Shown one piece after another: positions 13,710 through 32,228 of a stretch of 64,000 nucleotides of DNA (the stretch's first letter is position 1; the number at the start of each line of letters is the position of its first letter). The position numbers were made by a program, and so were the translations under genes. The DNA lies in assembly GCF_900142535.1 (NCBI RefSeq), contig NZ_FRBE01000012.1, positions 1 through 64,000 on the forward strand, given 5' to 3'. The stretch is from Fibrobacter sp. UWEL (GTDB taxonomy: Bacteria; Fibrobacterota; Fibrobacteria; Fibrobacterales; Fibrobacteraceae). The notes under the pieces are model-generated. The model saw nothing but the letters and a program-made list of their open reading frames with translations, ran no database searches and was not told the DNA's origin.

Positions 13710-15725
13710 ATGAAAAATTTTAAAGCAAATTGTTTTAAGGTCGGTGCCGCGTTAACTGCATCGGCTCTTTCTTTTGGTCTTGTAGCCTGCGCTGGAAGCA
13801 AGTCTGCGGATAACTCTGTTCCTCCTGCAGTTGCCGAGGCTAGGGCCGAGAGCGGTGTTCCTGCTGATTTGCCCCGTTATGTGGCTCCCAAGGCAGTAAC
13901 CGTTTTTGAAATGAAGGTGATTTCTGCGGATAAGCAGATTCGCGTGGTGGATAAACCTACTATGGCTGCTCTTGATTTTGCGGCTTACTTCAATAACCCG
14001 ATCCGTATGGCCGGCAAGGAAGATGTTCCGGAAGGATACAAGGGTGTGATGGCTGGAACCAAGATGGAAAACTATCCGTTCCCTATGTTGGACTCCCTTT
14101 CTGGCTATGAACCTAATGCTGTTTCTGGTGTGGAACCGATTGCTTGGGAACCCTTTGCGAAATTACTGTACTCCCAGACTGGATCGGATTCTCTATCGGT
14201 CTTGTTGAACGGAGTGGAAGCCGTCAAGTGGCAGGAGCCAGAGGTTTTCCGAGCGTTCCAGAGTGTCACTCGCCTGTGGGGTGTTCCTTCTTCCAATGCA
14301 AAAGCAGGATCCAACGCCATTGACTGGTGGGTAGAAGTGATGCCTGCCCAATGGACTGGCCGTAGCGCGTTTTACGGAAAGTTGAAGTTTACTTCTACAG
14401 GAGAAGTGGGGGAAATCCTCAACTACTACCTGACGGGTGAAATGAATTCTGACGATGCCATGAACTGGGCTCGTACCCTTTCTTCTTACTGGTATCCCAC
14501 TTTGAATACGGACCTGGAACCTCATACTGCTGGGGCTCCCTGGGAAAACGGCAGGCCTTTTGCGGTGATGCGCGGTAATCCTATGGGCACTCCCATGTGG
14601 ATTGGCTTTGAAACGCCCTTGTTCCGCATGACGGATGAAGATATTCGTGCAAAGAGAATTGCGGATTCCCTGATGGCTAACGGTGAAGTGATTCCTGTGG
14701 ATCGTCACTTGGATACCAGCTCCACGTTCCGTCTTGAAACTTTGAATTCCGTCAAGGGCTCTTGCCCGGCCAATGCCGCTACGGCTGCGTTCCGTAAGTC
14801 TTTGTCCGCTCAGATGGCTAAGCTTCCCAAGGAACAGAACGCCTGGGCGGAAGTGGATGCCAAGGGCAATAAGGTGGATGGTGGTTTCCTCTGGTTCCGT
14901 CGCAACGCCAATTACTTGCTGGCAGACAAGATTAGCAAGCAGGATTCCCTCCACAATCCGCTGCCCCGTATGGTGGAATTGAAAAACTATCTGGACTCTC
15001 TGGGTATCCAGCTGCTGGTTGTTCCTGTTCCCGTGAAGGAAGAAATCTACGGCGAGAAGATTGTGCCGGGTACAGCTGCGGATCTGTGTGTCAATCCTGA
15101 AGGTCGCGCTTTCACCCAGGAACTTCTGGAAGCGGGTATTGACGTGCTGGATATTTATCCTGCCTTGATGGCTGCCAAGGCCGGCGATGAACCGCCTCAT
15201 TACAGTTTCCAGCGTTATGATACCCACTGGGCTTTGCCTGGTGAGCTTGCCGCTATGGAACTTCTTGCTGGTCGTGTGACGCAGTATAGCTGGTATGCGG
15301 AATCCGGCGCACAGCCTGGTAGCCTGAACCTTCAGGAAACTCAAACTCTTCGTGAGGGGGACCTGGTGGCTCATTTGCCGGATGCGGAAAAGTCTAAGTA
15401 TCCTGCGGATAACTTGAACGTGATGAAAGTCTATCGCGGTACGGAAACCTATAAGGGCGGCAAGAATGCTCCGATACTCTTGATGGGGGATTCCTTTACG
15501 GGTGTCTTTGAAAGTGTGGATCAGAAGAGCGGTGGCCCGGGTTCCTTGCTGGCTTATGCAACTGGCTTGGACGTGCAGGTTCTTACCAGCTGGGGCGGCG
15601 GCCCCGGTGTTCGTAGCCGCATGATGAAGATGAAGAAGGATATGCAGAGCAAGAGACTTGTTGTCTATATGATGACCGCAAGAGACCTCTGGCAATCTCC
15701 GATGGAATGGGACGCACTTCGCTAG
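13710..15725 (+). CDS. Lipoprotein with AlgJ/AlgX-like SGNH domain
   Basis: This 671-residue protein has a lipoprotein signal with lipobox LVAC (Cys27). Residues 40-350 are unassigned. From about residue 360 it resembles the AlgJ/AlgX/DHHW family. Sequential motifs are NSVKGSC, a long FLWFRRNANYLLADKI segment, KNYLDSLGIQLLVVPVPVK, the Asp-His pair YDTHWALPG (about 503) and the Ser block LLMGDSFTG (about 592). In AlgX the DxHW pair and the later Ser form the acetyl-transfer triad, in the same order as here. It is therefore a candidate periplasmic or outer-membrane O-acetyltransferase or esterase acting on a polysaccharide. The start at 13710 fits the signal peptide; an earlier GTG/ATG start at 13662 would add non-signal residues. 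Confidence 0.8.
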   Translation: MKNFKANCFKVGAALTASALSFGLVACAGSKSADNSVPPAVAEARAESGVPADLPRYVAPKAVTVFEMKVISADKQIRVVDKPTMAALDFAAYFNNPIRMAGKEDVPEGYKGVMAGTKMENYPFPMLDSLSGYEPNAVSGVEPIAWEPFAKLLYSQTGSDSLSVLLNGVEAVKWQEPEVFRAFQSVTRLWGVPSSNAKAGSNAIDWWVEVMPAQWTGRSAFYGKLKFTSTGEVGEILNYYLTGEMNSDDAMNWARTLSSYWYPTLNTDLEPHTAGAPWENGRPFAVMRGNPMGTPMWIGFETPLFRMTDEDIRAKRIADSLMANGEVIPVDRHLDTSSTFRLETLNSVKGSCPANAATAAFRKSLSAQMAKLPKEQNAWAEVDAKGNKVDGGFLWFRRNANYLLADKISKQDSLHNPLPRMVELKNYLDSLGIQLLVVPVPVKEEIYGEKIVPGTAADLCVNPEGRAFTQELLEAGIDVLDIYPALMAAKAGDEPPHYSFQRYDTHWALPGELAAMELLAGRVTQYSWYAESGAQPGSLNLQETQTLREGDLVAHLPDAEKSKYPADNLNVMKVYRGTETYKGGKNAPILLMGDSFTGVFESVDQKSGGPGSLLAYATGLDVQVLTSWGGGPGVRSRMMKMKKDMQSKRLVVYMMTARDLWQSPMEWDALR

Positions 15726-15735
15726 ACGTTGGGAC

Positions 15736-15793
15736 GCTTCGGGGCTGATATTCCTGCGAAAACAAGGACGTCGCTTCGCTCCTTTATTGTTTT
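15736..15793 (+). repeat. 58-bp direct repeat, copy 1
   Basis: Begins gcttcggggctgatattcct and ends cctttattgtttt. A second copy lies 163 bp downstream, with a single C/T difference seen. Confidence 0.85.
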
Positions 15794-15898
15794 CTCCGGA
15801 ACATCAGTCCCCTTCGCTGAAACGGTCTAGCTTCAGAATGCGCGAACTAAGAACGTGAGGAAATTTCTGGATAGGAATGACTTCGCTAGAACGTCTTT

Positions 15899-15956
15899 GC
15901 TTCGGGGCTGATATTCCTGCGAAAACAAGGACGTCGCTTTGCTCCTTTATTGTTTT
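15899..15956 (+). repeat. 58-bp direct repeat, copy 2
   Basis: Near-identical to 15736-15793. Together they fill most of the 241-bp gap between the AlgJ-like gene and the transglutaminase-like gene. No ORF was found in the gap. Confidence 0.85.
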
Positions 15957-15966
15957 AAAATAACGT

Positions 15967-16701
15967 ATGGAAAAGTCTAAAACACGGGCTGTCTTGAATG
16001 CTTTTGCGGTGATTGCGTTTCTTGCGGTTGGCGCCGTAGGACTTTTTTTCCTGTGGGGTGGTCGTGGGGGAGACTTAAGCTATGTGGAGATGGCTTGCTC
16101 TATTGAGGGTAAGGAAATCTCTTGCGTTGACAACTTGCAGGACTGGAACGAAGGCCTTCGTTATTACGATTCTACTTTGTCTGTAACGAGCGATACTCTG
16201 GGTTCCTTGAAATCTCTTTTGTGGGAATACTGGACTATAGATTTTGCGGGGGCAGCGAATGCTTCTTCCTCTCAAGAAGTCATTTTCCCGTTGTCTGTTT
16301 TGCAGAATAAAAAATCCGGATGTGTGGGCCTTGCTTGGCTTGCCTTGATGGTGGCCGAGGTTCGTAATATCAACCTTCACGCAGTACTCTTGCCAGGCCA
16401 TGTTTTCCTGCAGTATGGTTCTCCAGAAAATGTTTCGAAAGTCAATCTGGAACCCAATCGCAGGGGGTATTCTTACACGGATGAAGAATACCGCCAGAAA
16501 TATAAAGCGGGACCTTGGACGGGGTTGGAATTCAAGCCTCTGGAGGCTCGCCAATTGGTTGGTCTCGCCGCTTTCGATGTGGGAAATCTCTACCTGAAAG
16601 AGGATGCATCCAAGGCGCTCAAGTGGTACCGTCTTGCAGAAGAATTTTTCCCTGAATTCCCGGGCATTTCAGCCAATCAGAACGTAGCGAAACAACGCTA
16701 A
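15967..16701 (+). CDS. Membrane-anchored SirB1/transglutaminase-like protein
   Basis: This 244-residue protein has an uncleaved N-terminal membrane helix (residues 10-31). Its core resembles the SirB1/Transglut_core2 family: a Cys in KKSGCVGLAWLALMVAEV (about 119), a His in LLPGHVFLQYG (about 140) and an acidic residue in VNLEPNRRGYSY, in the usual Cys-His-Asp/Glu order. A short TPR-like tail follows (AAFDVGNLYLKEDASKALKWY). Transglutaminase-like folds cleave or crosslink peptides, and the substrate here is unknown. It precedes the four TIGR02171-type genes by 18 bp, but a promoter element lies in that gap, so co-transcription is not assured. Confidence 0.65.
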   Translation: MEKSKTRAVLNAFAVIAFLAVGAVGLFFLWGGRGGDLSYVEMACSIEGKEISCVDNLQDWNEGLRYYDSTLSVTSDTLGSLKSLLWEYWTIDFAGAANASSSQEVIFPLSVLQNKKSGCVGLAWLALMVAEVRNINLHAVLLPGHVFLQYGSPENVSKVNLEPNRRGYSYTDEEYRQKYKAGPWTGLEFKPLEARQLVGLAAFDVGNLYLKEDASKALKWYRLAEEFFPEFPGISANQNVAKQR

Positions 16702-16706
16702 ATTGC

Positions 16707-16714
16707 TATTTTAG
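16707..16714 (+). promoter_or_regulatory. -7 element 5 nt before the first TIGR02171-type gene
   Basis: TATTTTAG, then 5 nt, then ATG at 16720. The same octamer and spacing occur before the deacetylase-like gene at 42102 on the minus strand. Confidence 0.45.
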
Positions 16715-16719
16715 GGCCG

Positions 16720-19473
16720 ATGAAGTGCAAAGCACTGTTTGCCTCTATTTTGGCAGCTCTGCTCAGTAGCTGCTCCGATGATTCGTCCTCCTCCAAGGCA
16801 GACGAAGTTTCTGTTCATGCTTCCGATATTCCTGGCTATATCCAGGTGAAGGCCGTAGGTAAATCTGTGGTCCTGGGGACCAATGATTCCACCGCCAAGG
16901 ATAATGAACGCCCCAAAATGAAGGTGACCTTTGACTATGATTTTGCTCTTGGCCGAAGCGAGGTTACCTGTGGTGAGTTTAACGAAATCATGGGGAAGGC
17001 TAATCTTCCAGAAGGGTTGATCACGAAGGTGGATTGCGAGGAGGATAACCTCCCTGCGGCTAATGTGACCTATTACGATATCATCCTTTTTGCCAATGCG
17101 AAAAGTGTTGCGGAAGGAATGGATACCGCATACTCCTATCAATCCATATCCCTGGATGGTGAGGGACATTGCAGTAATATGACCGGCCTTTCCCTGCGTA
17201 CGGGGGTGGATGCATTCCGCCTGCCTACGGAAGCGGAATGGATGGCTGCCGCTCAGATTCGCTGGAATCCGGACAATAGCTGGAATGCTGAAAATTCTGA
17301 CTATCGGTCTCATTCGGTTTGCGGCTTTGTTTCTGATTCCTTGCACTTCTGTGATCTGGAGGGGAACGTAAAGGAATTCGTGTACGGCTGGCTTGGGAAT
17401 TTCTCCGATACGACGGTATCCAATTTTATGGGCGCCCCTCAGGCGGATGGCTTGGGCCAGCGCGTGTTAAAGGGCAGTAGCTTTAAGCTGAACAAGGAAA
17501 CCGCAATGGCATACCGCCGTGGAGATGACTATGTGGTTACCTCTGCAACTCATGCGGATTACGTGGGCTTCCGCCTGGCTTATGGGGCGATTCCTGATCC
17601 TACTTGGATGAACGGCAATTCTGTGTCGACATCTAATACGGTGTCTCTGGTGAATTCCTTTGCCATGAAGAAACATCTGGGGACCATGCAGGCTAAGCTT
17701 GCGTTCCGGAATCATATTACTGGAAATCTGGAATTTATCGATTACTCTCTCGGTTCCAAGGTTTTTGAAATTGCGGACACCCTTACCGTATATCATCCAG
17801 ATATTTCCCCTAATGGCCAGTGGGTAGCGTTCTGTACGAGTATTGAAGGTGTGGACGCCCAGTCTAATGTTTATGTCCGCAGGTTGAATTACGCTGGTAC
17901 GGATTTAGTTAAGCTGAATGCCGAAAGGGCTGCAATTCCCCGCTGGAGAGTTACACCTGATGGCGACACGGTCCTTGTTTATGTGACCAATGCCGGCGAT
18001 AATTCGGATAAGAATGTCTTCTCTGGTCAAAGCACCTGGGAGGTTTCTTTCTCCGATGGAATGTTCGGAAGACCTCATAAGCTATTCGATGGCGCTTACC
18101 ACGGGGGCGTTTCCGCAGATGATCGTCTCGCCGTTACAGGATCCCGCCTGCTTCGCACTCGCACGGTTACGGATGACGGTGTGGTGGATTCCGTCTGGTA
18201 CAACAGCGAACAGGCTTGTAACGTAAGTCTTTCCAAGGATGACAGCAAGAGAACTCTGTTCCTGGATTTTGGCCGCAAGAGGGATAAGGAAAACAACATT
18301 GAAGGATACGGCGTTCATGAACGTATCCTGGTGGTGGATAGTACGGGAAGCGAGATTAAATATGTTTCTGCTCCCGACAATTTTGCATTTGACCATACCG
18401 AGTGGGCTACGGGAAATAGAGCCGTGGCTTCCTTGACCAACTACAATGGCGTTCATGAAAAGATTGTCCTGGTGGATATGTCTACGGATTCTGTGATGGC
18501 GTTGGCTGAAGGAAGTGAATTATGGCACCCCGCATTTTGGACGGAAGAAAGTGATTTTTACGAGGAGTCCGAGCTGGATCGTGATAGTGCCGGCGTGTAC
18601 CTAAATGAAAACGATGGATGGGCCTCTGTTCTCATGCGCTACAATATGGAACTGCTGTGGCGTTATGCAGATAGTGCAAATGTTGCCATTCTCGGTTCTT
18701 CCCGTCCCTTGTATTCCATCAGTCCAAGGCTTTTAAGTAAGGAATTCTTCGGGGTGAATTTCGCCCACACGCCCAATTCCTTATACTCCACTCGTGATTT
18801 CCTGGACAAGTACATTTTCAATCATTTGAAAAATTTGAAATATGTTGTCATCTCGCTGGATATGGATTTCTGGTGGAAAGTTGATGGTCAAAAGGGCGAT
18901 AATTTCTTTGTGAAGGATGTGAAGAAATATCCTGGCTACGTCTATGATGAAAATCATGATTACTGGAAGGATGGTATTCCTGCTGGGTTACTCCAGGTAA
19001 CGGAAAAATCTCTCGGCACAGAGGACGCTCTGGTCTATACTTTTGACAGAGGGCGTTACTTGGGAACTCTGTGTGGTTCATGGGGCAAGGTTCCCGAAAT
19101 TGAAGTGGACAGCACATTCTCGGATAAAGACGATTGCCTGGAAAATTCCCTAGAAACCTTGGAGGGGATTCTTAAGGAATGTGAGGAACGTGGTATTTCT
19201 GTTGTGGGAATTATTTTCCCCCAAAGTCCCGCTTATGCCAATACGGGAGCTTTCGGTCGCTACGGCCTTCGCAGAAGTGTCGCAAAGAAACTGATTGAAA
19301 AGATTGGTGGACTTTCAAAGACCTATCCGCATTTTGTTCTGATGGACGAAAATAAGATGGGTGATCATGATTATGGAGACGAAATGGCTGTGGACTTCGA
19401 TCACCTCTGCGATAAGGGGGCGGTACAGATAACTGCAAGGCTTGATTCCGTTCTTCAGGGGTTAGAAAAATAG
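16720..19473 (+). CDS. TIGR02171-type lipoprotein 1: FGE-like, beta-propeller, SGNH-like
   Basis: This 917-residue lipoprotein (lipobox LLSSC, Cys18) is the first of four tandem paralogs. Residues 45-290 resemble the FGE/SUMF1 fold (FRLPTEAEW at 166, CDLEGNVKEF, VLKGSSFK, VGFRLAYG), but the Cys pair of active formylglycine enzymes is not in its usual place. Residues 320-620 show TolB/PD40-like propeller repeats (HPDISPNGQWVAF at about 357). The last 270 residues look like an SGNH hydrolase: VAILGSSRP (block I Ser, about 658) and DFDHLCDKGA (block V Asp/His, about 893). I recall this family as a Fibrobacter paralogous group of unknown function. The domain reading, especially SGNH, is my inference. 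Confidence 0.8.
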   Translation: MKCKALFASILAALLSSCSDDSSSSKADEVSVHASDIPGYIQVKAVGKSVVLGTNDSTAKDNERPKMKVTFDYDFALGRSEVTCGEFNEIMGKANLPEGLITKVDCEEDNLPAANVTYYDIILFANAKSVAEGMDTAYSYQSISLDGEGHCSNMTGLSLRTGVDAFRLPTEAEWMAAAQIRWNPDNSWNAENSDYRSHSVCGFVSDSLHFCDLEGNVKEFVYGWLGNFSDTTVSNFMGAPQADGLGQRVLKGSSFKLNKETAMAYRRGDDYVVTSATHADYVGFRLAYGAIPDPTWMNGNSVSTSNTVSLVNSFAMKKHLGTMQAKLAFRNHITGNLEFIDYSLGSKVFEIADTLTVYHPDISPNGQWVAFCTSIEGVDAQSNVYVRRLNYAGTDLVKLNAERAAIPRWRVTPDGDTVLVYVTNAGDNSDKNVFSGQSTWEVSFSDGMFGRPHKLFDGAYHGGVSADDRLAVTGSRLLRTRTVTDDGVVDSVWYNSEQACNVSLSKDDSKRTLFLDFGRKRDKENNIEGYGVHERILVVDSTGSEIKYVSAPDNFAFDHTEWATGNRAVASLTNYNGVHEKIVLVDMSTDSVMALAEGSELWHPAFWTEESDFYEESELDRDSAGVYLNENDGWASVLMRYNMELLWRYADSANVAILGSSRPLYSISPRLLSKEFFGVNFAHTPNSLYSTRDFLDKYIFNHLKNLKYVVISLDMDFWWKVDGQKGDNFFVKDVKKYPGYVYDENHDYWKDGIPAGLLQVTEKSLGTEDALVYTFDRGRYLGTLCGSWGKVPEIEVDSTFSDKDDCLENSLETLEGILKECEERGISVVGIIFPQSPAYANTGAFGRYGLRRSVAKKLIEKIGGLSKTYPHFVLMDENKMGDHDYGDEMAVDFDHLCDKGAVQITARLDSVLQGLEK

Positions 19474-19477
19474 GTAA

Positions 19478-22276
19478 ATGATGAAACTGTGGAAACTTTT
19501 GCTTTGGTGCTTAGTCTGGATGTGCGCTTGTACCCATTCCGATGACTATGCGATTCGTTCGACAAGGGTGGACCTTGATGAGGATTCTTCTCATGACGGT
19601 TTGATTTATGTCCATGCGAAAGACGCCTACGTGACTTTGGGTGCCAAAGGAGCGACAGCCATCTTTAACGAAAAGCCTAAGATGGGTGTTCGTTTTGATT
19701 ATGATTTCTCCTTGGGTAAACACGAAGTGACTTTGGGCGAGTTCCGGAAGTACACCTCTGAAAACTGGGGCTTTTTTGCAGATGCCATTGGCGATAGCCT
19801 GCCTGTGACGGACTTGACCTACTATGATGCCATCCTTTATGCCAATGCCCGTAGTAAGGCAGAAGGCTATGATACTGCCTATACCTATACCTCTGCCCAG
19901 ATCAATGTGGATGGAAGATGCTCGGGCATGGAAGCTCTCGTGTTTTCTCCGGAAGTAGATGCGTACCGTTTGCCTACGGAAGCCGAATGGATGTTGGTAG
20001 CAAGCCAGGATTGGGATGTGGAAAAGGCCTGGACCATGGAGAATGCCATGAGCCGAGTTCATAATGTTTGCTCCATTGGTGAAAATCGTGATGGCTTCTG
20101 TGATATGGCTGGTAACGCCATGGAATGGATGAATGACTGGCTTGGCTTCTATAAGGATACCGTTGTCTTTGATTATGCTGGTGGTCCTGATGGTGCTCTT
20201 TCTGGAACGCGTGTGGTGAAGGGGGGAGGCTTTACTACGCCTAAGGAATACACCAATTTCCATAGTAGGGGGGATACCTATGACGTGGTTTCCAATACGC
20301 ACTCCGTTTATGTTGGATTCCGTCTTGCATTCGGTCGCATTCCCAATGCCATGTGGTTAAGCAATGATGGTGTCTCCGTGGAAGATCGACTGATTCCCAA
20401 GATTAGCGTTCGCGCCATTCGTTCCCTAGTAGGTACCATTCGCTCCAAGCTGGTGTTCCGTAATGAATTGACTCGCAATCTCGCCTTCGTGGACTATTCT
20501 TATGCACCCCAGATGGCTATTGAAATCAAGGATACCTTGAACTGCTTCCACCCGGATATTTCTCCCGATGGAAGTCTGGTTGCTTTCTCCACAGGTTCAG
20601 AAGGTATTGACGGCCCTTCCTCCGTTTATGTGAGACAGTTGGCTGTTAACGGAGATAGCCTGGTCAAGCTGGATGTCAAGAATGCTGCCATTCCTCGCTG
20701 GCGCGTGACCGAAGACGGGGACACGGTAATCGTATACGTTACCAACGCGGGGGATAACACTAGCGATGGAAACTTTAAGAGTTGGAGCACTTGGCAGGTT
20801 CCTTTCAGCAATTACCATTTTGGAACTCCGGAAAAACTTTTCGATGGAGCCTATCATGGGGGAATCAGCTACGATAATCGTCTGGCCGTTTCTGGTGCAA
20901 GACGTCTTCGTGCAAGGATTGCGGATTCCGATTCTTCTAGCACGGTGATGGATGGTTCCGCTCTGGATACGATTTGGTACAATGAGGAACAGGCCTGCAA
21001 CGCCTCCCTAGCTAAGGATAGCAGTAAGCGTACTTTGTTCCTTGACTTTGCTAGTAAAACAGGCGAGGAATTTGTTGGTCAGTCCTATTCCAGGCATGAA
21101 TACATCCTGATTGCGGATAGTACGGGCAAGCTGATTCATTCTGTGGCTGCTCCCAAGGGTTATACCTTTGACCATACGGAATGGGCTTTGGGCGGTTACA
21201 TGACGGTGAAATCCAGATACCAGCCCTTTATTGTTACTAGCCTTACCACTAACAACGGGGCTCATGAAAAAATTGCCCTGGTGAATCTGCTGGATAGCTC
21301 CGTTACGGATCTGATTGAAGGCACCGAAGTTTGGCATCCTTCTTTCTGGGTGGAAAAAGGCTCCCTCATTGACGACGAAAGATTGAATGAATTGGACCGT
21401 GATAGTGCAGCTGTTTATTACGAAGGTGTGGATTCCAAACTGATTGCATCCAAGATGAATGTGTTCTGGAATAAGTGCGACTACTTGAAGGTGGTCGCAT
21501 TAGGTTCCTCCCGTATGAGCCTAGGCTTTATCTCGAATCGCATTTCCTATGGAGCCTCCTTCAATATGGCAACCATCCCGTCCGATATGGATGTGTCCCG
21601 CTATTTTGCAGTGAATTACGCCTTGAATCACTGCAAGAAACTGAAGTTCCTTGTGGTCGGCATCGATATGGATTTGTGGGGCGAAGTCCCTGGCGAAAAT
21701 ATCAGCCAGAATTTAGGGAGCGTTCCGGGACTGTTCTACGATGCCCATCATAATTTCTGGGTGGAAGAAGGCCATGAATTGCTGAAAAAGCTGAGCAGCC
21801 GCTACATTCAGGAAAGTAGCCATCTTCGCTTTATTAGCCAGAAGAATGGCTGGATGGAATATGATGACGATACCCGTTCCTGGAGGGAAGGTATCGCTCT
21901 GGTGGCCGATTCTACCTGGAGTGACAATTCCAATTTCATCAAGAATGCCATTTCCCAGCTGACTGAAATTATTGAGAAAGCAAATGAAAAGGGTGTTTCT
22001 GTGTTGGGCGTGATTTTCCCACAGAGTCCCTATTACAAGAAGACGGGTTCTTTCGGTCGACATGGCATGCGTAGATCTCACGCCCTGAAGACCATCGAAA
22101 TGCTTCGTGACATGGAAAAGGATTATTCCAATTTCTACCTGCTGGATGAAAATCTGATGGGTGACCATGATTATGGGGATAGTCTTGCTTATGACTATGA
22201 CCACTTGAATAGCAAGGGCGCTTACCAGGTTACAGCACGAATTGATACGGTTCTCAATAAAATCGGGGGCAAGTAA
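19478..22276 (+). CDS. TIGR02171-type lipoprotein 2: FGE-like, beta-propeller, SGNH-like
   Basis: This 932-residue paralog lies 4 bp after copy 1. The lipobox is MCAC (Cys18). The FGE-like part has YRLPTEAEWM (about 165), FCDMAGNAMEW and VVKGGGF. The propeller has HPDISPDGSLVAF and the recurrent FDGAYHGG and FDHTEW motifs shared by all four copies. The SGNH-like part has VALGSSRM (about 676) and YDYDHLNSKGA (about 905). Copies 1 and 2 are clearly homologous end to end but well diverged, so the duplication is old. Predicted location is the outer membrane or periplasmic face. Function unknown. Confidence 0.8.
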   Translation: MMKLWKLLLWCLVWMCACTHSDDYAIRSTRVDLDEDSSHDGLIYVHAKDAYVTLGAKGATAIFNEKPKMGVRFDYDFSLGKHEVTLGEFRKYTSENWGFFADAIGDSLPVTDLTYYDAILYANARSKAEGYDTAYTYTSAQINVDGRCSGMEALVFSPEVDAYRLPTEAEWMLVASQDWDVEKAWTMENAMSRVHNVCSIGENRDGFCDMAGNAMEWMNDWLGFYKDTVVFDYAGGPDGALSGTRVVKGGGFTTPKEYTNFHSRGDTYDVVSNTHSVYVGFRLAFGRIPNAMWLSNDGVSVEDRLIPKISVRAIRSLVGTIRSKLVFRNELTRNLAFVDYSYAPQMAIEIKDTLNCFHPDISPDGSLVAFSTGSEGIDGPSSVYVRQLAVNGDSLVKLDVKNAAIPRWRVTEDGDTVIVYVTNAGDNTSDGNFKSWSTWQVPFSNYHFGTPEKLFDGAYHGGISYDNRLAVSGARRLRARIADSDSSSTVMDGSALDTIWYNEEQACNASLAKDSSKRTLFLDFASKTGEEFVGQSYSRHEYILIADSTGKLIHSVAAPKGYTFDHTEWALGGYMTVKSRYQPFIVTSLTTNNGAHEKIALVNLLDSSVTDLIEGTEVWHPSFWVEKGSLIDDERLNELDRDSAAVYYEGVDSKLIASKMNVFWNKCDYLKVVALGSSRMSLGFISNRISYGASFNMATIPSDMDVSRYFAVNYALNHCKKLKFLVVGIDMDLWGEVPGENISQNLGSVPGLFYDAHHNFWVEEGHELLKKLSSRYIQESSHLRFISQKNGWMEYDDDTRSWREGIALVADSTWSDNSNFIKNAISQLTEIIEKANEKGVSVLGVIFPQSPYYKKTGSFGRHGMRRSHALKTIEMLRDMEKDYSNFYLLDENLMGDHDYGDSLAYDYDHLNSKGAYQVTARIDTVLNKIGGK

Positions 22277-25050
22277 TGATGGGTAAATTTGCAAAATATG
22301 CGGGGGCGCTAGGTCTGGCGGCGTTCACTGTTTCCTGTACCCATCACGATGCCAATCCGATGTATCAGGACGATTATGATGTTTCTGAAGTGGAGTATGG
22401 AAAGGATGAAGCCCATGAGGGACTTATCCATATTCAGTCTGCAGGGCACTATACATACGTAGGCACCAATAAGGTCAATGCCAACAAGAAAGAAATGCCT
22501 GCGATGAAGGTTAAGTTTGATTATGACTTCTCCATTGGCGAACACGAAGTGACTCAGGCCGAATATGCTTCGGTGATGGGCGGCGAACCTGCTCCTGGTT
22601 GCGAAAATCTTCCCATTGCCAATGTGACCTTTGGTGACATGGTCATGTATGCCAATAACCGCTCTAAGCTGGAAGGCTACGATACAGTTTATACATTCAC
22701 TGCAGTGGATTATGATAGTCTTCATCATGTGAATGGCTTTGAAAACTTCGTGTTCAATCCCGAAGTGGATGGATATCGACTGCCTACGGAAGCGGAATGG
22801 ATTTTTGCAGCCTCCCATGGCTGGGATGTTTCTGATGGCTGGAATTTGACCAATTCCGGTGAACAGGCTCATGATGTTTGTTCCAAGGCAAGGAACAATC
22901 TGGGTATTTGTGATATGGCGGGTAACCTTGCTGAATGGGTAAGCGATTGGCTTGGCTATTTCAAGGATACTACCGTTACGAATTTTGTAGGCGCTCCCGA
23001 TGGCGGCTCCCTTGGGGAACGAGTCCTTAAGGGCGGTAGCTTCAAGCATAGTGTGGCCCGCACGAATCTTCATTCCCGTTTAGACACCTATACGGTGATT
23101 TCCAAAAACAGGGATAACTATGTGGGCGGCCGTATCGCCTTCGGTAAAATTGAGAAGCCGGTCTGGATGGCTGCCGATGGTTCCACATCCTCTTCTATTA
23201 TGAAGTCTCTGGTAAAGGCCTCTACCCTCAAGAAAAAGCTGGGAACCCTCCGTGCAAAGATGGCCTTTGTGAACCGTCTGACCGACAATTTGGTCTACAT
23301 GAATTTTAATGAAAGTTCCTTTACGGTGAAGGAAATCAAGGATTCTCTGGGCATCAAGGTGCGCCATCCGGATATTTCTCCCGACGGGGAGTGGGTCGCA
23401 TTCTCCACAGGTGGGGAAGGTATTTCCGGCAAATCTGAACTGTATGTTCGTCGCCTCAATCTGGCTGGTACCGACTTGGTGAAGCTGGATGTGGAATCTG
23501 CTGCAATTCCCCGCTTTCAGGTGACGGACGCCGGAGATACGGTCATTGTCTACGTGACTACCGCTGACGTGAATACGGATTCTGAATTCTTCAAGACCAC
23601 AAGCACCTGGCAGGTGCCATTCTCTGGTGGAAAATTTGGTACTCCCGAAAAGCTTTTTGACGGAAACTACCACGGGGGCGTTTCTCCCGATGGAAAGCTT
23701 GCTGTTACTGGCGCTCGCATCCTGAGGGCACGTATTCAACATGAGGAATCCTACACGGATACCGTCTGGTTTGACAGCGTTCAGGCTTGTAACGCCTCCC
23801 TTTCTCAGGATGGAACCAAACGAACCCTGTTCCTGGATTTCGCGAAGAGGAATGGTCCTGGTCGTGAATTCGTGGGGAAGGACTATGGCGTTCACGAACG
23901 GATGTTCGTTGCTGATAGTACTGGTAACCTTCTTCAGAGTGTTGGTGCTCCTGGTGATCTCGCTTTTGACCATACGGAATGGATTAACGGTAAGAATCTT
24001 GCTGTAGCCTCTGTCTATGACGTGAACGGTAGCCATACAAAGCTTGTATTGATTGACTTGCAGGATAGTTCCGTAACCGACCTGGTAAAGGGTGATGAAC
24101 TTTGGGATCCTTGCTTACGTGTATTGAACGTGAATCTTCCGGAAGATGAAAAATTCCTGAATCTGGATAGTGCGGGCGTGTACATGACTGCCACCTCGGA
24201 TATTACCACTCGCATTATGAAAATCAAGATGGAGTATTTCTGGCAGTATCGTGAAGTAACGGAAGTGGCCGTCATAGGTTCTTCTCGTTCCTTCTCTGGC
24301 TTGGATCCAACTGCGGTGACCTCTCACTTTACCATCAATCTGGCTTATTCCGCAGAAGATCTTACTGCGACGAACTTCTTTGTGTCTAATTATATCTTGC
24401 CCTTAATGCCGAAACTGAAGGCTGTTGTGATCACTCTAGATTACGATCGCTGGTTTGTGAAGGATGAAAATTGGAAGGCTTGGTTTGGCGATATTCCTGG
24501 ATATCGTTATGACGAAAATCATGACTTCTGGAAGGATGGAGTTCCCAAGAGCATGCTGAACTTGACTCGCAGCGCCATGACTCCGGATGATGAGGAATCC
24601 TATACCTTTGGCTATAACAATGGCTTGTACCATTCTGAATCTGAAGGCTGGGTGGATGAAAATCCGGAAGTTTCCTGGGATGTGAATTGGTATCGCAATA
24701 ATCCCGATGCCTATGCATACAATCGCGAAAAGCTAGTTGCAATTCTGAAGGCCGCAAAGGAAAAGGGCATTCTCGTGATTGGCGCAGTGTTCCCTCAGTC
24801 TCCCTATTACGTCAAGAAAAACGTATGGGGCCGTTATGGCCTTACCTTGGATCACACCAAAGAAATCCAGGATGACATGAAATCCCTGCAGGAAGAATAT
24901 GGCAATTTCATCATCTTTGACGAATACAAGGATGGCGTGAACGATTATGTGTATGAAGACTTCTCCAATGAGGATCACTTGGGCTTGCAAGGTGCAGTGA
25001 AGGTGGCTGAACGTCTGGATTCCCTGCTGATGAAGGAACTGGATCCGTAA
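22276..25050 (+). CDS. TIGR02171-type lipoprotein 3: FGE-like, beta-propeller, SGNH-like
   Basis: This 924-residue paralog has a start codon that overlaps the stop of copy 2 by one base (TAATG), suggesting translational coupling. The lipobox is TVSC (Cys21). It keeps YRLPTEAEWI, ICDMAGNLAEW and VLKGGSF in the FGE-like part, HPDISPDGEWVAF in the propeller, and VIGSSRS (about 667) with NEDHLGLQGA (about 900) in the SGNH-like part. A Ser/Thr-to-Glu change beside the block V His is the main difference from the other copies. The spacing of all conserved blocks is kept. Confidence 0.8.
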   Translation: MMGKFAKYAGALGLAAFTVSCTHHDANPMYQDDYDVSEVEYGKDEAHEGLIHIQSAGHYTYVGTNKVNANKKEMPAMKVKFDYDFSIGEHEVTQAEYASVMGGEPAPGCENLPIANVTFGDMVMYANNRSKLEGYDTVYTFTAVDYDSLHHVNGFENFVFNPEVDGYRLPTEAEWIFAASHGWDVSDGWNLTNSGEQAHDVCSKARNNLGICDMAGNLAEWVSDWLGYFKDTTVTNFVGAPDGGSLGERVLKGGSFKHSVARTNLHSRLDTYTVISKNRDNYVGGRIAFGKIEKPVWMAADGSTSSSIMKSLVKASTLKKKLGTLRAKMAFVNRLTDNLVYMNFNESSFTVKEIKDSLGIKVRHPDISPDGEWVAFSTGGEGISGKSELYVRRLNLAGTDLVKLDVESAAIPRFQVTDAGDTVIVYVTTADVNTDSEFFKTTSTWQVPFSGGKFGTPEKLFDGNYHGGVSPDGKLAVTGARILRARIQHEESYTDTVWFDSVQACNASLSQDGTKRTLFLDFAKRNGPGREFVGKDYGVHERMFVADSTGNLLQSVGAPGDLAFDHTEWINGKNLAVASVYDVNGSHTKLVLIDLQDSSVTDLVKGDELWDPCLRVLNVNLPEDEKFLNLDSAGVYMTATSDITTRIMKIKMEYFWQYREVTEVAVIGSSRSFSGLDPTAVTSHFTINLAYSAEDLTATNFFVSNYILPLMPKLKAVVITLDYDRWFVKDENWKAWFGDIPGYRYDENHDFWKDGVPKSMLNLTRSAMTPDDEESYTFGYNNGLYHSESEGWVDENPEVSWDVNWYRNNPDAYAYNREKLVAILKAAKEKGILVIGAVFPQSPYYVKKNVWGRYGLTLDHTKEIQDDMKSLQEEYGNFIIFDEYKDGVNDYVYEDFSNEDHLGLQGAVKVAERLDSLLMKELDP

Positions 25051-25054
25051 TCTT

Positions 25055-27688
25055 ATGAAATTTCTTCTGGGCCTTTTCCTGCTATTGCTTGCTGCCTGTA
25101 GCGATTCGGAATCTTCCGCACCGTCTTCTTCGGGGAAGGACCTAGAGGGCTTTATTTTAATGCCTGCTCCCAAGGATGGTGTGATTCTTGGTACTGATTC
25201 TGAAAAGGCGCAGCCTATGGATCGCCCTCAGATGAAGGTGATGCTTAATTATGATTTCCATATTGCCCAGCATGAAGTGACCTGCCAGGATTTTGCGGAC
25301 TATCCGGATGTTCTTCCTAATTTGTCTTGCGAAGGTAATCATGTCATTACGGGAATTACCTATTACGATGCAGTTCTTCTTTCCAATGCCAAGAGTAAGG
25401 CGGAAAAACGGGACACAGTATATTCCTATTCCAAGATTGTTCGAGATCAGGAAGGATATTGCGTTAATTTAGTAGGTTTTAGGTTTAATCCTGAAGCAGA
25501 AGGCTATCGCTTGCCTACGGAGGCGGAATGGGTTTACGCATTTAGCGTTCATTACGATTCAAAGCAAATCAATGAAGATTTTACCTTTTTTGCCAAAGAG
25601 TGGGTCAATGATTGGCTCGGACGCTTTAGGGATACTACTGTAACCAATTATGTCGGGGCTCCTAATGGAGGCTCCTTTGATGAACATGTGGTGAAAGGGG
25701 GTAACTTTAGTGCGGGTACACCTGTCATTGACTTGTATAGTCGAGGAGATATTTATGTGGTTTCCGCATCTTCCCGCGCCCAGTATATCGGATTTCGTCT
25801 AGCGATTGGGAAAATTCCATCTGCAGTTTGGTTAGACAATGACGGTGTGGCTGTACATAACTCTCAATCCATTCTTTTGACTCAACCAGAAGTGCGGGCG
25901 GCTACAGGTTCTTATCAGGTAAAGCTGGTGTACAGGGATAACGTTAGTGAGAATCTTGTATATGTAGATTTCAATAACGGTAAACCTACTTTGGTGGAAG
26001 TGGATGATTCCTTAAACAATTTCCATCCGGACATTTCTCCGGATGGTCAATGGGTGGTGTTCTCCACGGGAATGGAAGGCGTTACCGGAGAATCGCAAGT
26101 TTTTGCAACACGGTTTGGATCTAGCGCAATCTCTGTCAAATTGAATGTCGAAAATGCTGCTCTTCCTCGATTCCGTGTGACTGCAGAAGGGGATACCGTA
26201 GTTGTGTATGTTACCGATGGCGGTGATAATTCCGCTGAAGGTAATTTCCTCGCACAGAGTACCTGGCAGGTCCCTTTCTCCAAAGGGGTATTTGGAACGC
26301 CCGAGAAATTGTTTGATGGCGCATATCATGGGGGAGTCCGCAGGGACAATCAGTTTGCTGTTACAGGCGCAAGGCTGTTGCGTTCCCGTGTAGGTGATAA
26401 GCATCTGGTCTGGTATGATTCTGCCCAGGCTTGCAATGTTTCTTTATCCCAGGACGGTTCCAATCGTACCTTGTTCCTGGATTTTGGCGGAAAGCCTGGA
26501 CGGGAATTTGCTGGAACCAAGTATGGTGTTCATGAACAGATTCTGATTGCAGATAGTACCGGCAAGTTGATTCAAATGATTCCTGCTCCGGAGGGCTATT
26601 CCTTTGATCATACGGAATGGGTAAAAGGGGCTCATCTGATTGTCGCCTCCTTAACCAATCCTTCGGGCAATCATGAAAAGGTGGTGCTGATCAACACTGC
26701 AGATAGTAGCATAACGGATTTCGTAGGTGGAGACGATCTGTACCATCCCTGTATGTGGATTGAAAATGGTTTAGGAAATCTGGATATTGATGATTCTCTG
26801 GATCCCGACAGTGCGGGACTTTACCTCGGTAGCAAATTCTTGCAGGAGGATATTTTTTGGCGCTATAAGATGGAACTGCTTTGGAAGTATCGGGATAGTG
26901 CCGATGTAGCCGTAGTGGGGTCGTCAAGAGCTGTGGATGGCGTTCGCCCCCGCATTATGGATTCCTCGGGATTTGTGTTGAATTTGGCTCAGATTCCTAA
27001 CTCAATTTTTACCACCAGGGATTTTGTCAAGAATTATGTCTTGCCCCATTTAAATAAACTGAAATATTTGGTGGTTTCCTTGGATATTGACTTCTGGTGG
27101 AAAGGGGATGACGAAGGGGATAACTTCTTCATTCAGTCCTACAAGGAATATCCTGGTTTCGTTTATGATGAAAATCATAATTACTGGAGGGATGGATACC
27201 CTAAGGGTCTCTACGAGTTGACGAACCTCGCTCCAGGTGTAGCAAATGGAAGTAGCCAATACCTTAAGGAATATGGCTTTACAGGACAAAGCTGTGTTGA
27301 CTGGGGTGAAGAACCTCCTGCTATTGCCACGGACACCACAAACGTGCAGGATTCAATCTTGCTGGAACGTAGCTTTGAGGCCCTTCAGGAAATGGTTGAA
27401 TTCGCCCGTCAGAAAGATGTGATTGTTATCGGCGCCATATTCCCTCAGTCTCCGGCCTATAAGAATACGGGAGCTTATGGAAGACATGGTGTACGTCGCA
27501 GCCTTGCATCCCATATGATCGCTCGTCTTAAGAGTTTTGAATCCAGTAACTTTGTTCTTCTGGATGAAAATAAGATGGGTGAGCATGATTATAGTTCCAA
27601 TATGTTTGAGAACTATGATCATCTGTGCTTTGGCGGTGCAAAACGTTTTAGTAATCGTCTAGACTCCTTGATTGCTTCTCTCGAGTAG
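25055..27688 (+). CDS. TIGR02171-type lipoprotein 4, shortened FGE-like domain
   Basis: This 877-residue paralog has lipobox LAAC (Cys15) and lies 4 bp after copy 3. Between YRLPTEAEWV and KEWVNDWLG it has 22 residues where copy 3 has 44. The missing part contains the CDMAGN turn that normally precedes the EW motif of FGE-like domains. The propeller (HPDISPDGQWVVF, FDGAYHGG, FDHTEW) and SGNH-like part (VVGSSRA at about 621, NYDHLCFGGA at about 853) are intact. Loss of the FGE turn with retention of the other parts suggests that the SGNH and propeller functions are the conserved ones. Confidence 0.8.
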   Translation: MKFLLGLFLLLLAACSDSESSAPSSSGKDLEGFILMPAPKDGVILGTDSEKAQPMDRPQMKVMLNYDFHIAQHEVTCQDFADYPDVLPNLSCEGNHVITGITYYDAVLLSNAKSKAEKRDTVYSYSKIVRDQEGYCVNLVGFRFNPEAEGYRLPTEAEWVYAFSVHYDSKQINEDFTFFAKEWVNDWLGRFRDTTVTNYVGAPNGGSFDEHVVKGGNFSAGTPVIDLYSRGDIYVVSASSRAQYIGFRLAIGKIPSAVWLDNDGVAVHNSQSILLTQPEVRAATGSYQVKLVYRDNVSENLVYVDFNNGKPTLVEVDDSLNNFHPDISPDGQWVVFSTGMEGVTGESQVFATRFGSSAISVKLNVENAALPRFRVTAEGDTVVVYVTDGGDNSAEGNFLAQSTWQVPFSKGVFGTPEKLFDGAYHGGVRRDNQFAVTGARLLRSRVGDKHLVWYDSAQACNVSLSQDGSNRTLFLDFGGKPGREFAGTKYGVHEQILIADSTGKLIQMIPAPEGYSFDHTEWVKGAHLIVASLTNPSGNHEKVVLINTADSSITDFVGGDDLYHPCMWIENGLGNLDIDDSLDPDSAGLYLGSKFLQEDIFWRYKMELLWKYRDSADVAVVGSSRAVDGVRPRIMDSSGFVLNLAQIPNSIFTTRDFVKNYVLPHLNKLKYLVVSLDIDFWWKGDDEGDNFFIQSYKEYPGFVYDENHNYWRDGYPKGLYELTNLAPGVANGSSQYLKEYGFTGQSCVDWGEEPPAIATDTTNVQDSILLERSFEALQEMVEFARQKDVIVIGAIFPQSPAYKNTGAYGRHGVRRSLASHMIARLKSFESSNFVLLDENKMGEHDYSSNMFENYDHLCFGGAKRFSNRLDSLIASLE

Positions 27689-27692
27689 GCCT

Positions 27693-29270
27693 GTGGAACG
27701 ATTACGTGGAAAAATTCTCTTGCTCCTGTTGCCGGTAATCGCGGCGGTTTTCGCTGTTTTCCCCCTGACGGATACGGACATCTGGTGGCACTTGGCTTGC
27801 GCTCGTGAGTGGGTAACTACATGGACTCCTGTGCGGGAGCCCGTGGTGAATGTCCATGAATATTTTCAGCAGGTGGTCTATGCTGTGTATGGGGCCGCAG
27901 GTGCTCAAGGTCTTGTTTTTTTTAAGGCCCTCCTGTGGGGAACCGTTTTTGCCCTCTTTATGAATCCGTTCTCAGACTCCCGTCGAAACGTTTCCATGGC
28001 GGGTATTTGCGTCGCGGCTTTATTGTTGTTCCTGTTCCGCTATCAGTTTGAAATGCGGCCGATAGTTTTTAGCCTGTTGTTTCTGGGGATTTACTGGAAT
28101 GTGATACCGTGGCTTGCGATGGGCTATGATGATCGAAAAAAGCGTTGGCTTGCGGCGATAGGTATTTTGTGCCTGCAGTGGATTTGGTGCAGATGTCAAG
28201 GACTGTATATTCTGGGACCGATTTTTGCGTTGGCCACCATTGTGGTTTACTTCGACAGGAATAACCTTGATCGACTTGCGTTATTGGCATTATTTGTCTT
28301 GGCTTTGTTTGGAATGCCTTTCTTGCATAGGGATGGCCTGCTGTTAGCGGTTTACCCCTTTGAACTTCTGAATCGCTTAGTGGGTTTGAGTCCCTCAGCC
28401 ACCATCTTTGCAAAGGAGATTGCAGAAAATCGTTCGCCCTTGACGTTGCTTTTGGAAGGGGAGAATGTCTGGACATCTCTCTTGATGATAGTTTGCTCGA
28501 TGGCAGGACTGGCTTATGTCATCAAGCAGTTTGTTGGAATGTTTAGGTCCAAGACCTTGCGCAACGAAGATTCATTGCTTAAGCTGGTGGTGCTTTGTGC
28601 CACGGCAATCTTGGCTCTGCTGGCAGAACGCAATTTTGTACTGTATCTGCCTGTATTTCTTTGTTTCCTAGGTGATGTGAAATTATGGAATGCCCCAGTA
28701 TTGGCAAAGCCTGCTGTAAAGCTGGTTGCTGTGATGGTGGTGATGTTTGTTCTTGGCCTCTGGCTTCGTTCCCTTCAGGCTTACGATGGCTCCATGGTTT
28801 CCTTCCAGCGGGTTCCGGTACGTGCCGCCCAATGGATGAAGGAGAATCCTCATAAGGGCCGCCTCTTTAACGATGATCGTGCCGGTGGATATCTGGCTTT
28901 CGTGAACCCTCAGGATTCTACATACATCGATGGTCGCTTCATCCTAAAGACCGCAGATTTCTTTGATCAGTACCTGCACTTTGCGGAAGACCCGTCCGCC
29001 TTTATCCGCTACGCCGATTCAGCCGGAATCGACCGGACCATCTTCCCCCTGCGTTACTACGCCCGCTGGGAAAAGCTGATTAACGCGTTAGGTCAAACTT
29101 ATCTTGATCGAGCAGCTCCCGGTCTTGAATCCCGAGTGGGACGGGGGGCGTGGCTCCCTGTTTATAAAGATGACGATTACGTTATTTTTGACTACGATGT
29201 TTTTTCCATGGATTCAAATCCCTTTCGTTGGGACAATCGTCGGTATTTTACTCCCGATTTCGCTTTTTAA
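27693..29270 (+). CDS. Polytopic membrane protein, GT-C glycosyltransferase-like
   Basis: This protein of about 525 residues has about ten hydrophobic segments. The N-terminus carries FPLTDTDIWWHLACAREWV, the acidic WWHL motif found in the first periplasmic loop of GT-C-type proteins. The soluble C-terminal part (residues 380-525) has GRLFNDDRAGGYLAF followed by YIDGRF, a pattern also found at the end of such proteins. GT-C enzymes transfer sugars from polyprenyl phosphate carriers at the outer face of the inner membrane. The GTG at 27693, 4 bp after the previous stop, is chosen; a TTG at 27672 would overlap copy 4. It is the last gene of the block. Confidence 0.7.
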   Translation: MERLRGKILLLLLPVIAAVFAVFPLTDTDIWWHLACAREWVTTWTPVREPVVNVHEYFQQVVYAVYGAAGAQGLVFFKALLWGTVFALFMNPFSDSRRNVSMAGICVAALLLFLFRYQFEMRPIVFSLLFLGIYWNVIPWLAMGYDDRKKRWLAAIGILCLQWIWCRCQGLYILGPIFALATIVVYFDRNNLDRLALLALFVLALFGMPFLHRDGLLLAVYPFELLNRLVGLSPSATIFAKEIAENRSPLTLLLEGENVWTSLLMIVCSMAGLAYVIKQFVGMFRSKTLRNEDSLLKLVVLCATAILALLAERNFVLYLPVFLCFLGDVKLWNAPVLAKPAVKLVAVMVVMFVLGLWLRSLQAYDGSMVSFQRVPVRAAQWMKENPHKGRLFNDDRAGGYLAFVNPQDSTYIDGRFILKTADFFDQYLHFAEDPSAFIRYADSAGIDRTIFPLRYYARWEKLINALGQTYLDRAAPGLESRVGRGAWLPVYKDDDYVIFDYDVFSMDSNPFRWDNRRYFTPDFAF

Positions 29271-30818: not shown

Positions 30819-30976
30819 AACATCCTCATATTTTTTCCCATAAGATATATCCATATGGTTCAAAGTGGATACAATGTAAGTTTTTTGGTGTTTACGGAAA
30901 GAAACAAGTGTGTTCTAATTCAACATAGTTTAGGTTCAAATGGTACGTTTTGTCCTAATTTTTCGTACTTTGTTAC

Positions 30977-31028: not shown

Positions 31029-32228
31029 ATGAAAATGATGAAGTTTGCGAAGGCATCCTTGATTGCCGCATTGGCTTGTTCTTCTGTTTTTGCCCAGCAG
31101 GGTGCCCCCAAGGGTGCTGCCGTGGATCCTACAGCCGATGAACAGAAGGCTCTGGATGCTTTAAAGGGTAAGGTGGAAGGCGTAATCGCCTGGTCTACCA
31201 GCCGAGCAAATTCTCATCACGATATTTGGCTTATGAATGCCGATGGTTCCAATGCCCATGCATTGACCAATAGCGACAATGTGGACTGGTTCCCCCGTAT
31301 TTCTCCTGATGGCTCCAAGGTGCTCTTTAACCGCAGTAAGGGCGGTTGGGTTCCCGAAAATGATGCTAACTACCCGGAGAAATGGGAACTCTGGACCATG
31401 GATATTGACGGGTCCAATCAGGTGAAGGTTGTGGATAACGCTACCTGGGGCACCTGGCGTCCTGATGGCAAGACCATCGTCTTTAGCCGTGCCGGCAAGG
31501 TCTTTACCATGGATCTCTCTTCCAAGGCAGAATCCCTGGTTCTGGATGGAGAAGTTGCCTTCAATAAGAAGGATGTGATTCTCCAGGAACCCAACATGAG
31601 TCCGGATGGCAAGCACTTGGCTATTACCCTCCGCGGTTCCATGCGTGAAACAGGTGTTTGGGATCTGGAAAAGAAGAGCTGGACTAAGTCCGGTGACGGT
31701 TGCCAGATTGACTGGAATTTTGATGGCTCCAAGCTCTACCGCGTAAATCCCACGGGTAACGGTGGTACTGCCGCTCCTAGCGAAATCCTGTGGTTCTCCG
31801 CCAAGGATGGTAAGCAGGTGGAAAAGGTGGGCTTCTTCGGTATTCCCAAGAATGTTCGTCTCATGGACCTGCCCGGTCGTCGCAGTCATGAATATTTCCC
31901 CCGCCTCTCACCCGATGGACAGTGGCTGGTCTGGGGTGCTACCGACAAGGGTCACGACCACGATATGTTCGACTATGAACTGTACATGTGGAAGATTGGT
32001 GAACCGGTGGAAACTGCTACCCGTATTACCTACCACTCTGGTAACGACCGCTGGCCTGATATCTGGCTGGGCAAGGTTCCTGTGAAGGAAACTCCCGCGG
32101 CTGCAGTGGCTGACGTGAAAGCTCAGGCTGTTACGGCCATTGCCGGCGGTGTCAGCGAAGCCAAAATGGATGAATTGATCCAGGCCATCGACCGCCTGAC
32201 CGAAGCTGTTAAGGCTTTGAATAAGTAA
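31029..32228 (+). CDS. Secreted TolB/PD40-like beta-propeller protein
   Basis: This 399-residue protein has a signal peptide ending in SVFAQ (about residue 23). Six or so PD40 repeats follow: DIWLMNADGSNAHALT, RISPDGSKVLF, WRPDGKTIVFSR, NMSPDGKHLAI and RLSPDGQWLVWGA. The C-terminus ends in an Ala-rich stretch and a predicted amphipathic helix (KMDELIQAIDRLTEAVKAL). TolB-like propellers bind partner proteins or peptides in the periplasm. It is not beside other Tol-Pal genes, so tolB itself is not claimed. The repeats resemble the middle domain of the four TIGR02171-type proteins upstream. Confidence 0.8.
   Translation: MKMMKFAKASLIAALACSSVFAQQGAPKGAAVDPTADEQKALDALKGKVEGVIAWSTSRANSHHDIWLMNADGSNAHALTNSDNVDWFPRISPDGSKVLFNRSKGGWVPENDANYPEKWELWTMDIDGSNQVKVVDNATWGTWRPDGKTIVFSRAGKVFTMDLSSKAESLVLDGEVAFNKKDVILQEPNMSPDGKHLAITLRGSMRETGVWDLEKKSWTKSGDGCQIDWNFDGSKLYRVNPTGNGGTAAPSEILWFSAKDGKQVEKVGFFGIPKNVRLMDLPGRRSHEYFPRLSPDGQWLVWGATDKGHDHDMFDYELYMWKIGEPVETATRITYHSGNDRWPDIWLGKVPVKETPAAAVADVKAQAVTAIAGGVSEAKMDELIQAIDRLTEAVKALNK

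Follow-up and report, generated by a model that had tools for sequence, protein, structure and literature searches.

A variable Fibrobacter gene block in a pathway that probably puts an unusual five-carbon sugar on the cell surface and acetylates surface sugars

The window analyzed here is a 64,000-nucleotide stretch of contig NZ_FRBE01000012.1 from Fibrobacter sp. UWEL (assembly GCF_900142535.1, the genome called G000 below). At positions 13710-29270 it carries seven open reading frames, which encode an AlgX/AlgJ-like SGNH lipoprotein (A), a membrane-anchored transglutaminase-like protein (B), four tandem TIGR02171 lipoproteins (C1 to C4) and a GT-C-fold membrane glycosyltransferase (D). A sequence-only reading of this DNA had described them as a co-oriented envelope block, and all seven lie on the forward strand where it placed them (Table 1). 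The start of A is ATG 13710, in a longest reading frame that opens at 13662. Successive gaps are +4 bp (C1-C2), -1 bp (C2-C3) and +4 bp (C3-C4), and +4 bp between C4 and D if D starts at GTG 27693 rather than at the other candidate, TTG 27672; given that start, the reported spacing of -1 to +4 bp for the last five genes is confirmed. B and C1 are 18 bp apart, and A and B 241 bp. Promoter and terminator predictions showed no excess over shuffled sequence, so the operon limits were drawn from spacing only. No RNA genes were found in the window. The order A-B-(C)n-D recurs throughout the genus, as the sequence-only reading had asked of its proposal, and the arrangement is therefore not a product of chance.

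A matches PF16822 (ALGX) with 71.3 bits against a gathering threshold of 26.5, and its profile matches include AlgJ (4o8v, 4e-13), AlgX (4knc, 2e-7) and PatB1 (5v8e, 6e-6). The DTHW and GDSFT motifs already noticed in the protein contain Asp504-x-His506 and Ser595, which are invariant in 23 diverse sequences from across the phylum. A is predicted, from these sequence features, to be a periplasmic acetyltransferase. B had been called SirB1/transglutaminase-like. It matches PF13369 (Transglut_core2, E 6e-8), and Cys119, His145 and Glu162 are invariant in an alignment of 22 homologues; with the NCBIfam SirB1 equivalog itself B scores 14.7 bits, far under the cut-off of 391. Distant homologues of B bear C-terminal TPRs. 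D has no sequence match in Pfam, NCBIfam or the PDB. Its AlphaFold2 model (predicted local distance difference test score, pLDDT, 87.4; predicted template modelling score 0.88) has a GT-C fold, as had been supposed for this WWHL-containing protein, and is closest in Foldseek to DPY19 (2e-7), to the oligosaccharyltransferases STT3/AglB/PglB and to ArnT, with probability 1.00 for DPY19, STT3, PglB and ArnT; arabinosyltransferases are also among the matches. The first periplasmic loop of D contains D34 (in at least 90% of sequences), D36 (invariant) and then WWHL, and D36, W39 and L41 are invariant together with many polar residues.

All four C proteins are full members of TIGR02171, with 1024-1158 bits over the full length against an NCBIfam cut-off of 544.35 bits, in line with the family assignment made earlier. 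Each consists of an N-terminal FGE-sulfatase-type domain (PF03781, E 8e-12 to 1e-26), a PD40/TolB-like propeller and a C-terminus of ~310 residues; in C1 the FGE-like domain spans residues ~49-287, the propeller ~291-604 and the SGNH domain 605-917. The sequence-only reading had recognized the SGNH-like C-terminus and missed the two domains before it. The lipobox Cys is present in 49/49 aligned C proteins. Formylglycine generation can be ruled out because the catalytic Cys pair is not conserved in the aligned region of these 49 proteins, which leaves only the FGE fold. C1-C4 are 41-46% identical to each other (44% for C2 and C1) and are thus old paralogues, not recent duplicates. Mean identity by domain is lowest in the SGNH domain (0.38), followed by the FGE domain (0.51) and the propeller (0.57). 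The SGNH domain has no PDB relative at the sequence level. An AlphaFold2 model of the C1 domain, built from 95 sequences (pLDDT 94.4), has an SGNH fold, with Foldseek probabilities of 1.00 to PAF-acetylhydrolases (E 1e-5) and GDSL lipases and of 0.97-0.99 to the peptidoglycan O-acetyltransferase PatB. Ser57, within GSS after the first strand, and His291, within DHL before the last helix, occupy the usual SGNH places and are present in 95/95 sequences; the position directly before the His (-1) is Asp in 93/95. The SGNH domains of A and of the C proteins share no profile-level homology (hhalign probability 0.4%) and so represent separate SGNH families.

Another TIGR02171 gene of G000 is split by a frame disruption and resembles a pseudogene (L105:9221-11987; contig C6, ~106.2-108.95 kb). 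On contig C24 of the same genome (L107:8167-11534), a GH16-lectin gene is followed by a gene for an FGE-SGNH protein that lacks the propeller. In G154, an MBOAT gene and a small DUF1574-like gene of the SGNH type overlap (L268:14097-16470), and a divergent TIGR02171 gene is located a few genes away; the small SGNH protein and the TIGR02171 C-terminal domain are homologous (44 bits). A lectin diversified by a diversity-generating retroelement was considered and rejected: the two reverse transcriptases of G000 (contigs C5 and C1) adjoin no TIGR02171 copy found, template and variable repeats not having been sought. A search of an open library of papers found none that names TIGR02171.

A scan of GTDB genomes with the A profile yielded 70 loci, all in Fibrobacterota except for two metagenome-assembled genome (MAG) contigs labelled Deltaproteobacteria (L215:2455-4311 and L221), which are possibly misassigned Fibrobacterota. 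The hosts span several classes of the phylum and include sediment, bog and fen genomes beyond gut Fibrobacter. Fibrobacter and its close genera share the order A-B-(C)n-D, except that the F. intestinalis group has A-B-D-(C)n. In distant families we found an operon MBOAT-AlgJ-A-B-D-PD40 (L124, L133, L134, L203, L206, L208), with no TIGR02171 gene between B and D, from which it follows that the arrival or expansion of the tandem lipoproteins was a later event and that the MBOAT and AlgJ genes moved away. The four lipoproteins are thus a later insertion, not the core of the system, and the PD40 gene beyond D in the window belongs to the ancestral operon, where it stood directly after D (D-PD40 adjacency in L124, L125, L129, L133 and L216). 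In G000 the orthologous MBOAT gene (contig C22:1013-2431, 548 bits) and the AlgJ-like gene (contig C1:180167-181780) are both unlinked to the block; in several Fibrobacter genomes the MBOAT gene still lies ~8-10 kb upstream of A. The G000 MBOAT ends in NPFLYFQF, and the eight other C-termini examined end in PFLYFQF. In PatA, acetyl reaches the SGNH partner on the Tyr of an FXYXXF-like motif at the C-terminus, and the same Tyr shuttle has been proposed for the alginate and cellulose systems (PMC12148441). By this precedent, the Fibrobacterota MBOAT should have SGNH partners, of which AlgJ and A are the obvious ones.

A second module consists of a UDP-apiose/xylose-synthase-like enzyme and a DPM1/ArnC-like GT2, whose genes are adjacent in G000 (contig C2, L280; the pentose enzyme at C2:289355-290359). 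They are fused with MBOAT-AlgJ in L128 and L291, directly precede a B homologue in L284 and L287, and are conserved in many lineages, also when separate from the other genes. The closest solved structure to the G000 pentose enzyme is Arabidopsis UDP-apiose/UDP-xylose synthase (6h0n, E 1e-69), ahead of ArnA (~1e-53); against PRK11908 it scores 236, under the cut-off of 294. In AXS1, Cys100 and Cys140 are catalytic. The first position is Cys in 12/12 Fibrobacterota homologues and Ala in ArnA, and the second is Ser in all but one of the Fibrobacterota homologues aligned. From sequence, the predicted product is a UDP-glucuronate-derived pentose, xylose or apiose, which revises the earlier remark that no substrate was visible. 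The GT2 homologue in L128 matches dolichol-phosphate-mannose synthase and ArnC, and the G000 copy matches the former. Beside the module lies a conserved protein of ~370-400 residues (L281:7475-8581, L128:1318-2475, L289:3910-5019, L290:10584-11693, L291:1540-2718); it has no Pfam match, is seemingly an outer-membrane barrel and has an invariant TPW..(I/V)GGCGAGGSGG after the signal peptide.

Although unlinked, the genes for A, D, MBOAT, AlgJ and the pentose enzyme are almost always present together or missing together. We scored presence and absence in 168 Fibrobacterota genomes from 41 genera and applied Fisher tests. At E <=0.001, A was found in 106/168 genomes and D in 99/168; for the statistics A was counted only if it was a clear orthologue, which left 96 genomes. 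The counts (both/A only/partner only/neither) were 94/2/5/67 for D, so that the two are shared or jointly absent in 161/168 genomes, 95/1/8/64 for both MBOAT and AlgJ (159/168 concordant each) and 95/1/9/63 for the pentose enzyme (158/168). Genome-level p values for these partners are 4e-35 or lower, which overstates independence because the genomes share ancestry; at genus level, p ranges from 2e-8 to 8e-11 for D, MBOAT and AlgJ and is 9e-10 for the pentose enzyme. Contrasts between sister groups recur (g14 vs g15, G165 vs G164, G006 vs G005, and also within Fibrobacter). SprA, used as a control, is present in 156/168 genomes with no association to A (p = 0.37), and incomplete assemblies therefore do not explain the pattern. 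TIGR02171 follows A more loosely than the other partners (90/6/9/63, p 5e-29; 18/3/1/19 at genus level).

Comparison with relatives revealed a valley of divergence limited to B-C-D. Between G000 and its close relative G070, flanking proteins are 92-100% identical (LptD, RdgB and PD40 93%, GyrA 100%; the GH5 cellulase, at 75%, is lower), and A is 90% identical, B 77%, C1-C3 78-85%, C4 62% and D 60%. Against G089 the values are 90% for A, 64% for B, 53-57% for the C proteins and 56% for D. Nonsynonymous (dN) and synonymous (dS) divergence are both raised in the divergent genes, with dS often saturated; since both rise, exchange of old alleles fits better than selection on amino acids alone. The number of C copies varies from one to seven. 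Such divergence, together with the copy variation, is what an exposed surface locus undergoing diversification would show.

Table 1 Features of the block and its downstream flank in the window.
Feature	Position	Strand	Evidence or remark
A: AlgX/AlgJ-like SGNH lipoprotein, 671 residues	13710..15725	+	PF16822
Direct repeat in A-B gap	15741..15938	+	exact 35-base cores 15741-15775 and 15904-15938
B: membrane-anchored transglutaminase-like protein, 244 residues	15967..16701	+	PF13369
C1: TIGR02171 lipoprotein, 917 residues	16720..19473	+	TIGR02171 1157.7 bits, PF03781
C2: TIGR02171 lipoprotein, 932 residues	19478..22276	+	1095 bits; same architecture as C1
C3: TIGR02171 lipoprotein, 924 residues	22276..25050	+	1040.7 bits
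C4: TIGR02171 lipoprotein, 877 residues	25055..27688	+	1023.7 bits
D: GT-C-fold membrane glycosyltransferase	27672..29270	+	AlphaFold2 and Foldseek
GH5 cellulase	29334..30863	-	between D and PD40 gene, convergent
PD40 (TolB-like propeller) protein	31029..32228	+	PF07676 61 bits; D-PD40 adjacency elsewhere

The cores of the A-B gap repeat sit in a longer imperfect repeat that has no match in any locus fetched from elsewhere. Many Fibrobacter genomes have the GH5 cellulase gene inserted, in convergent orientation, between the D and PD40 genes, and the C-terminus of the enzyme has a weak match to a type IX secretion system (T9SS) sorting domain. Further downstream (33075-34487), just 3' of a methyltransferase gene, a lipoprotein-like gene encodes long linker repeats that are acidic and rich in Ser.

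Taken together, we consider it likely that the phylum shares an extracytoplasmic pathway of glycan transfer and acylation whose variable part is this block. Through this pathway, an unusual five-carbon sugar is probably put on the cell surface and surface sugars are probably acetylated. From the gene content, co-occurrence, folds, conserved residues and MBOAT motif described above, we infer the chemical steps, their order, localisation and acceptor as follows. The UDP-apiose/xylose-synthase-like enzyme would convert UDP-glucuronate to a UDP-pentose, and the GT2 would place the pentose on polyprenyl phosphate. D would then act in the periplasm and hand the pentose to an acceptor, which may be a glycan, a lipid or a protein. 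The MBOAT may load the Tyr of its C-terminal FLYFQF with acetyl from acetyl-CoA, for the AlgJ-like protein and A to pass to the same surface glycan. The TIGR02171 lipoproteins, probably on the outer membrane, would bind the product and add further acyl groups to it or remove them, and would diversify along with D; possible roles of B are acceptor processing or assembly. Of the glycan transfer and acylation suggested by the sequence-only reading, the pathway itself is strongly supported by partners that this reading could not have seen, namely the MBOAT, the AlgJ, the UDP-pentose synthase and the polyprenyl-phosphate-type GT2; the activity of the C proteins and the acceptor are putative.

Besides the shared ancestry of the genomes, several observations weigh against this pathway or against parts of it. 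(i) For the G000 GT2, matches to other GT2 enzymes equal or exceed that to dolichol-phosphate-mannose synthase, so that its polyprenyl acceptor is putative. (ii) Of the Ser-His-Asp triad expected in the C-terminal domains, the Ser and His stand, within an SGNH fold, and the acid is uncertain, the canonical position at -3 to the His being Asn in 51/95 sequences and Asp in 41/95. (iii) TIGR02171 occurs without A in G066, G132 and G150, of which G066 is an incomplete genome that also lacks MBOAT, AlgJ and the pentose enzyme. (iv) A occurs without full-length TIGR02171 in G003, G006, G018, G158 and G166. (v) TIGR02171 genes are unlinked to the operon in most of the distant families looked at. An enzymatic role for the C proteins inside the pathway is a close call that we place slightly on the negative side. 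In G066 the TIGR02171 gene directly follows rdgB, an arrangement that deletion of A and B would produce, and the contig ends inside the gene (L266:3870-6347).

The looser attachment of TIGR02171 raises the question whether the lipoproteins are independent surface adhesins or lectins with an FGE/C-type-lectin fold, like Treponema TvpA, whose SGNH domains are unrelated to A, MBOAT and D and whose position is incidental. Their N-terminal domain matches T. denticola variable protein 1 in the PDB, several further copies lie elsewhere in this genome, and the genomes and families of points (iii) and (v) keep the genes without A or away from it. Such an origin would not account for the association with A at genome and genus level, for the family-wide position of the C genes between B and D or beside D, or for the invariant Ser and His of the SGNH domain. 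We regard it as a serious possibility, though one that probably fails.

D could instead be a protein glycosyltransferase like DPY19 or the oligosaccharyltransferases, and the block could make O-acetylated glycoproteins, with the lipoproteins as acceptors and not enzymes. The top structural matches of D, which are DPY19 and oligosaccharyltransferase subunits, and the joint divergence of D and the lipoproteins agree with this; ArnT and arabinosyltransferases match D too, however, the ancestral operon has no TIGR02171 gene between B and D, and no sequon was found, though none was looked for. We therefore think it unlikely. We are just as doubtful of a fuller version of our own proposal, taken as a whole, in which Fibrobacterota make, via polyprenyl-phosphate-pentose, an O-acetylated surface glycan with the branched pentose apiose (or a related pentose derived from UDP-glucuronate) in it, and B-C-D has become in Fibrobacter a diversifying cassette, comparable to an O-antigen locus, where the GT-C transferase varies jointly with one to seven FGE-propeller-SGNH lipoproteins.

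A scavenging system, in which the SGNH domains would strip acetyl groups from plant hemicellulose at the cell surface, might be read from the neighboring GH5 cellulase, from the GH16-lectin gene beside an FGE-SGNH protein elsewhere and from the existence of carbohydrate esterases within SGNH, but it seems improbable given that the acyl-shuttle MBOAT, the GT-C protein and the UDP-pentose synthase are biosynthetic and that the system occurs in several classes, including sediment, bog and fen genomes. Membership in type IX secretion, suggested by SprA in the genome and by lipoproteins with an FGE fold like GldJ/GldK and a propeller like PorE, can be set aside as very improbable: the NCBIfam matches to GldK (5e-7; 29 bits against a cut-off of 350), GldJ (2e-5) and PorE (0.0015) fall far below the cut-offs, SprA does not track A, and MBOAT, AlgJ and the pentose enzyme are not known to function in a T9SS.

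The pathway of glycan transfer and acylation offers an assigned context and testable roles for the TIGR02171 family, which is expanded in Fibrobacter and has so far been without a known function. For a major group of cellulose degraders with a poorly known surface chemistry, it also predicts which donor supplies the sugar of a surface glycan and by which route that glycan is acylated; in the F. succinogenes envelope proteomics papers that were searched with glycosylation and lipoprotein terms, nothing naming the system was seen. Across the phylum, genomes carry the gene set as a unit or lack it, so that species that have it, such as the cultured F. intestinalis (L188), can naturally be compared with species that do not, and a GT-C enzyme that diverges together with surface lipoproteins is a testable case of surface diversification.

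Each part of the system is of a known kind; the combination is not described in the literature we retrieved. One of the closest likenesses is to AlgI-AlgJ-AlgX (and to PatA-PatB, WssFGHI and DltB-DltD), as an MBOAT with an FXYXXF motif stands in one operon with AlgJ-like and AlgX-like SGNH proteins in distant Fibrobacterota. Unlike in alginate O-acetylation, no polymer synthase was seen adjoining the Fibrobacterota system, which is joined instead to a GT-C protein, a transglutaminase-like protein and a UDP-pentose/GT2 module. A has ~380 extra N-terminal residues and, the two MAG contigs aside, is restricted to Fibrobacterota. The polyprenyl-phosphate-pentose route of ArnA-ArnC-ArnT is paralleled by a UDP-glucuronate decarboxylase-type enzyme, an ArnC/DPM1-like GT2 and an ArnT-like GT-C fold; it differs in that no aminotransferase or formyltransferase was identified in the Fibrobacterota clusters, in the coupling to acylation and in an enzyme nearer to UDP-apiose/xylose synthase than to ArnA. 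To TIGR02171, defined as a Fibrobacter paralogous lipoprotein family of unknown function, the present work adds the three-domain architecture and the association with a pathway. The pentose enzyme resembles UDP-apiose synthases at the position of AXS1 Cys100 and departs from them at that of Cys140. Published bacterial UDP-apiose synthase genes have no conserved operon (PMC5607165), whereas the Fibrobacterota enzyme has conserved neighbors, and if its donor proves to be apiose, it would represent a new bacterial apiose pathway set among them.

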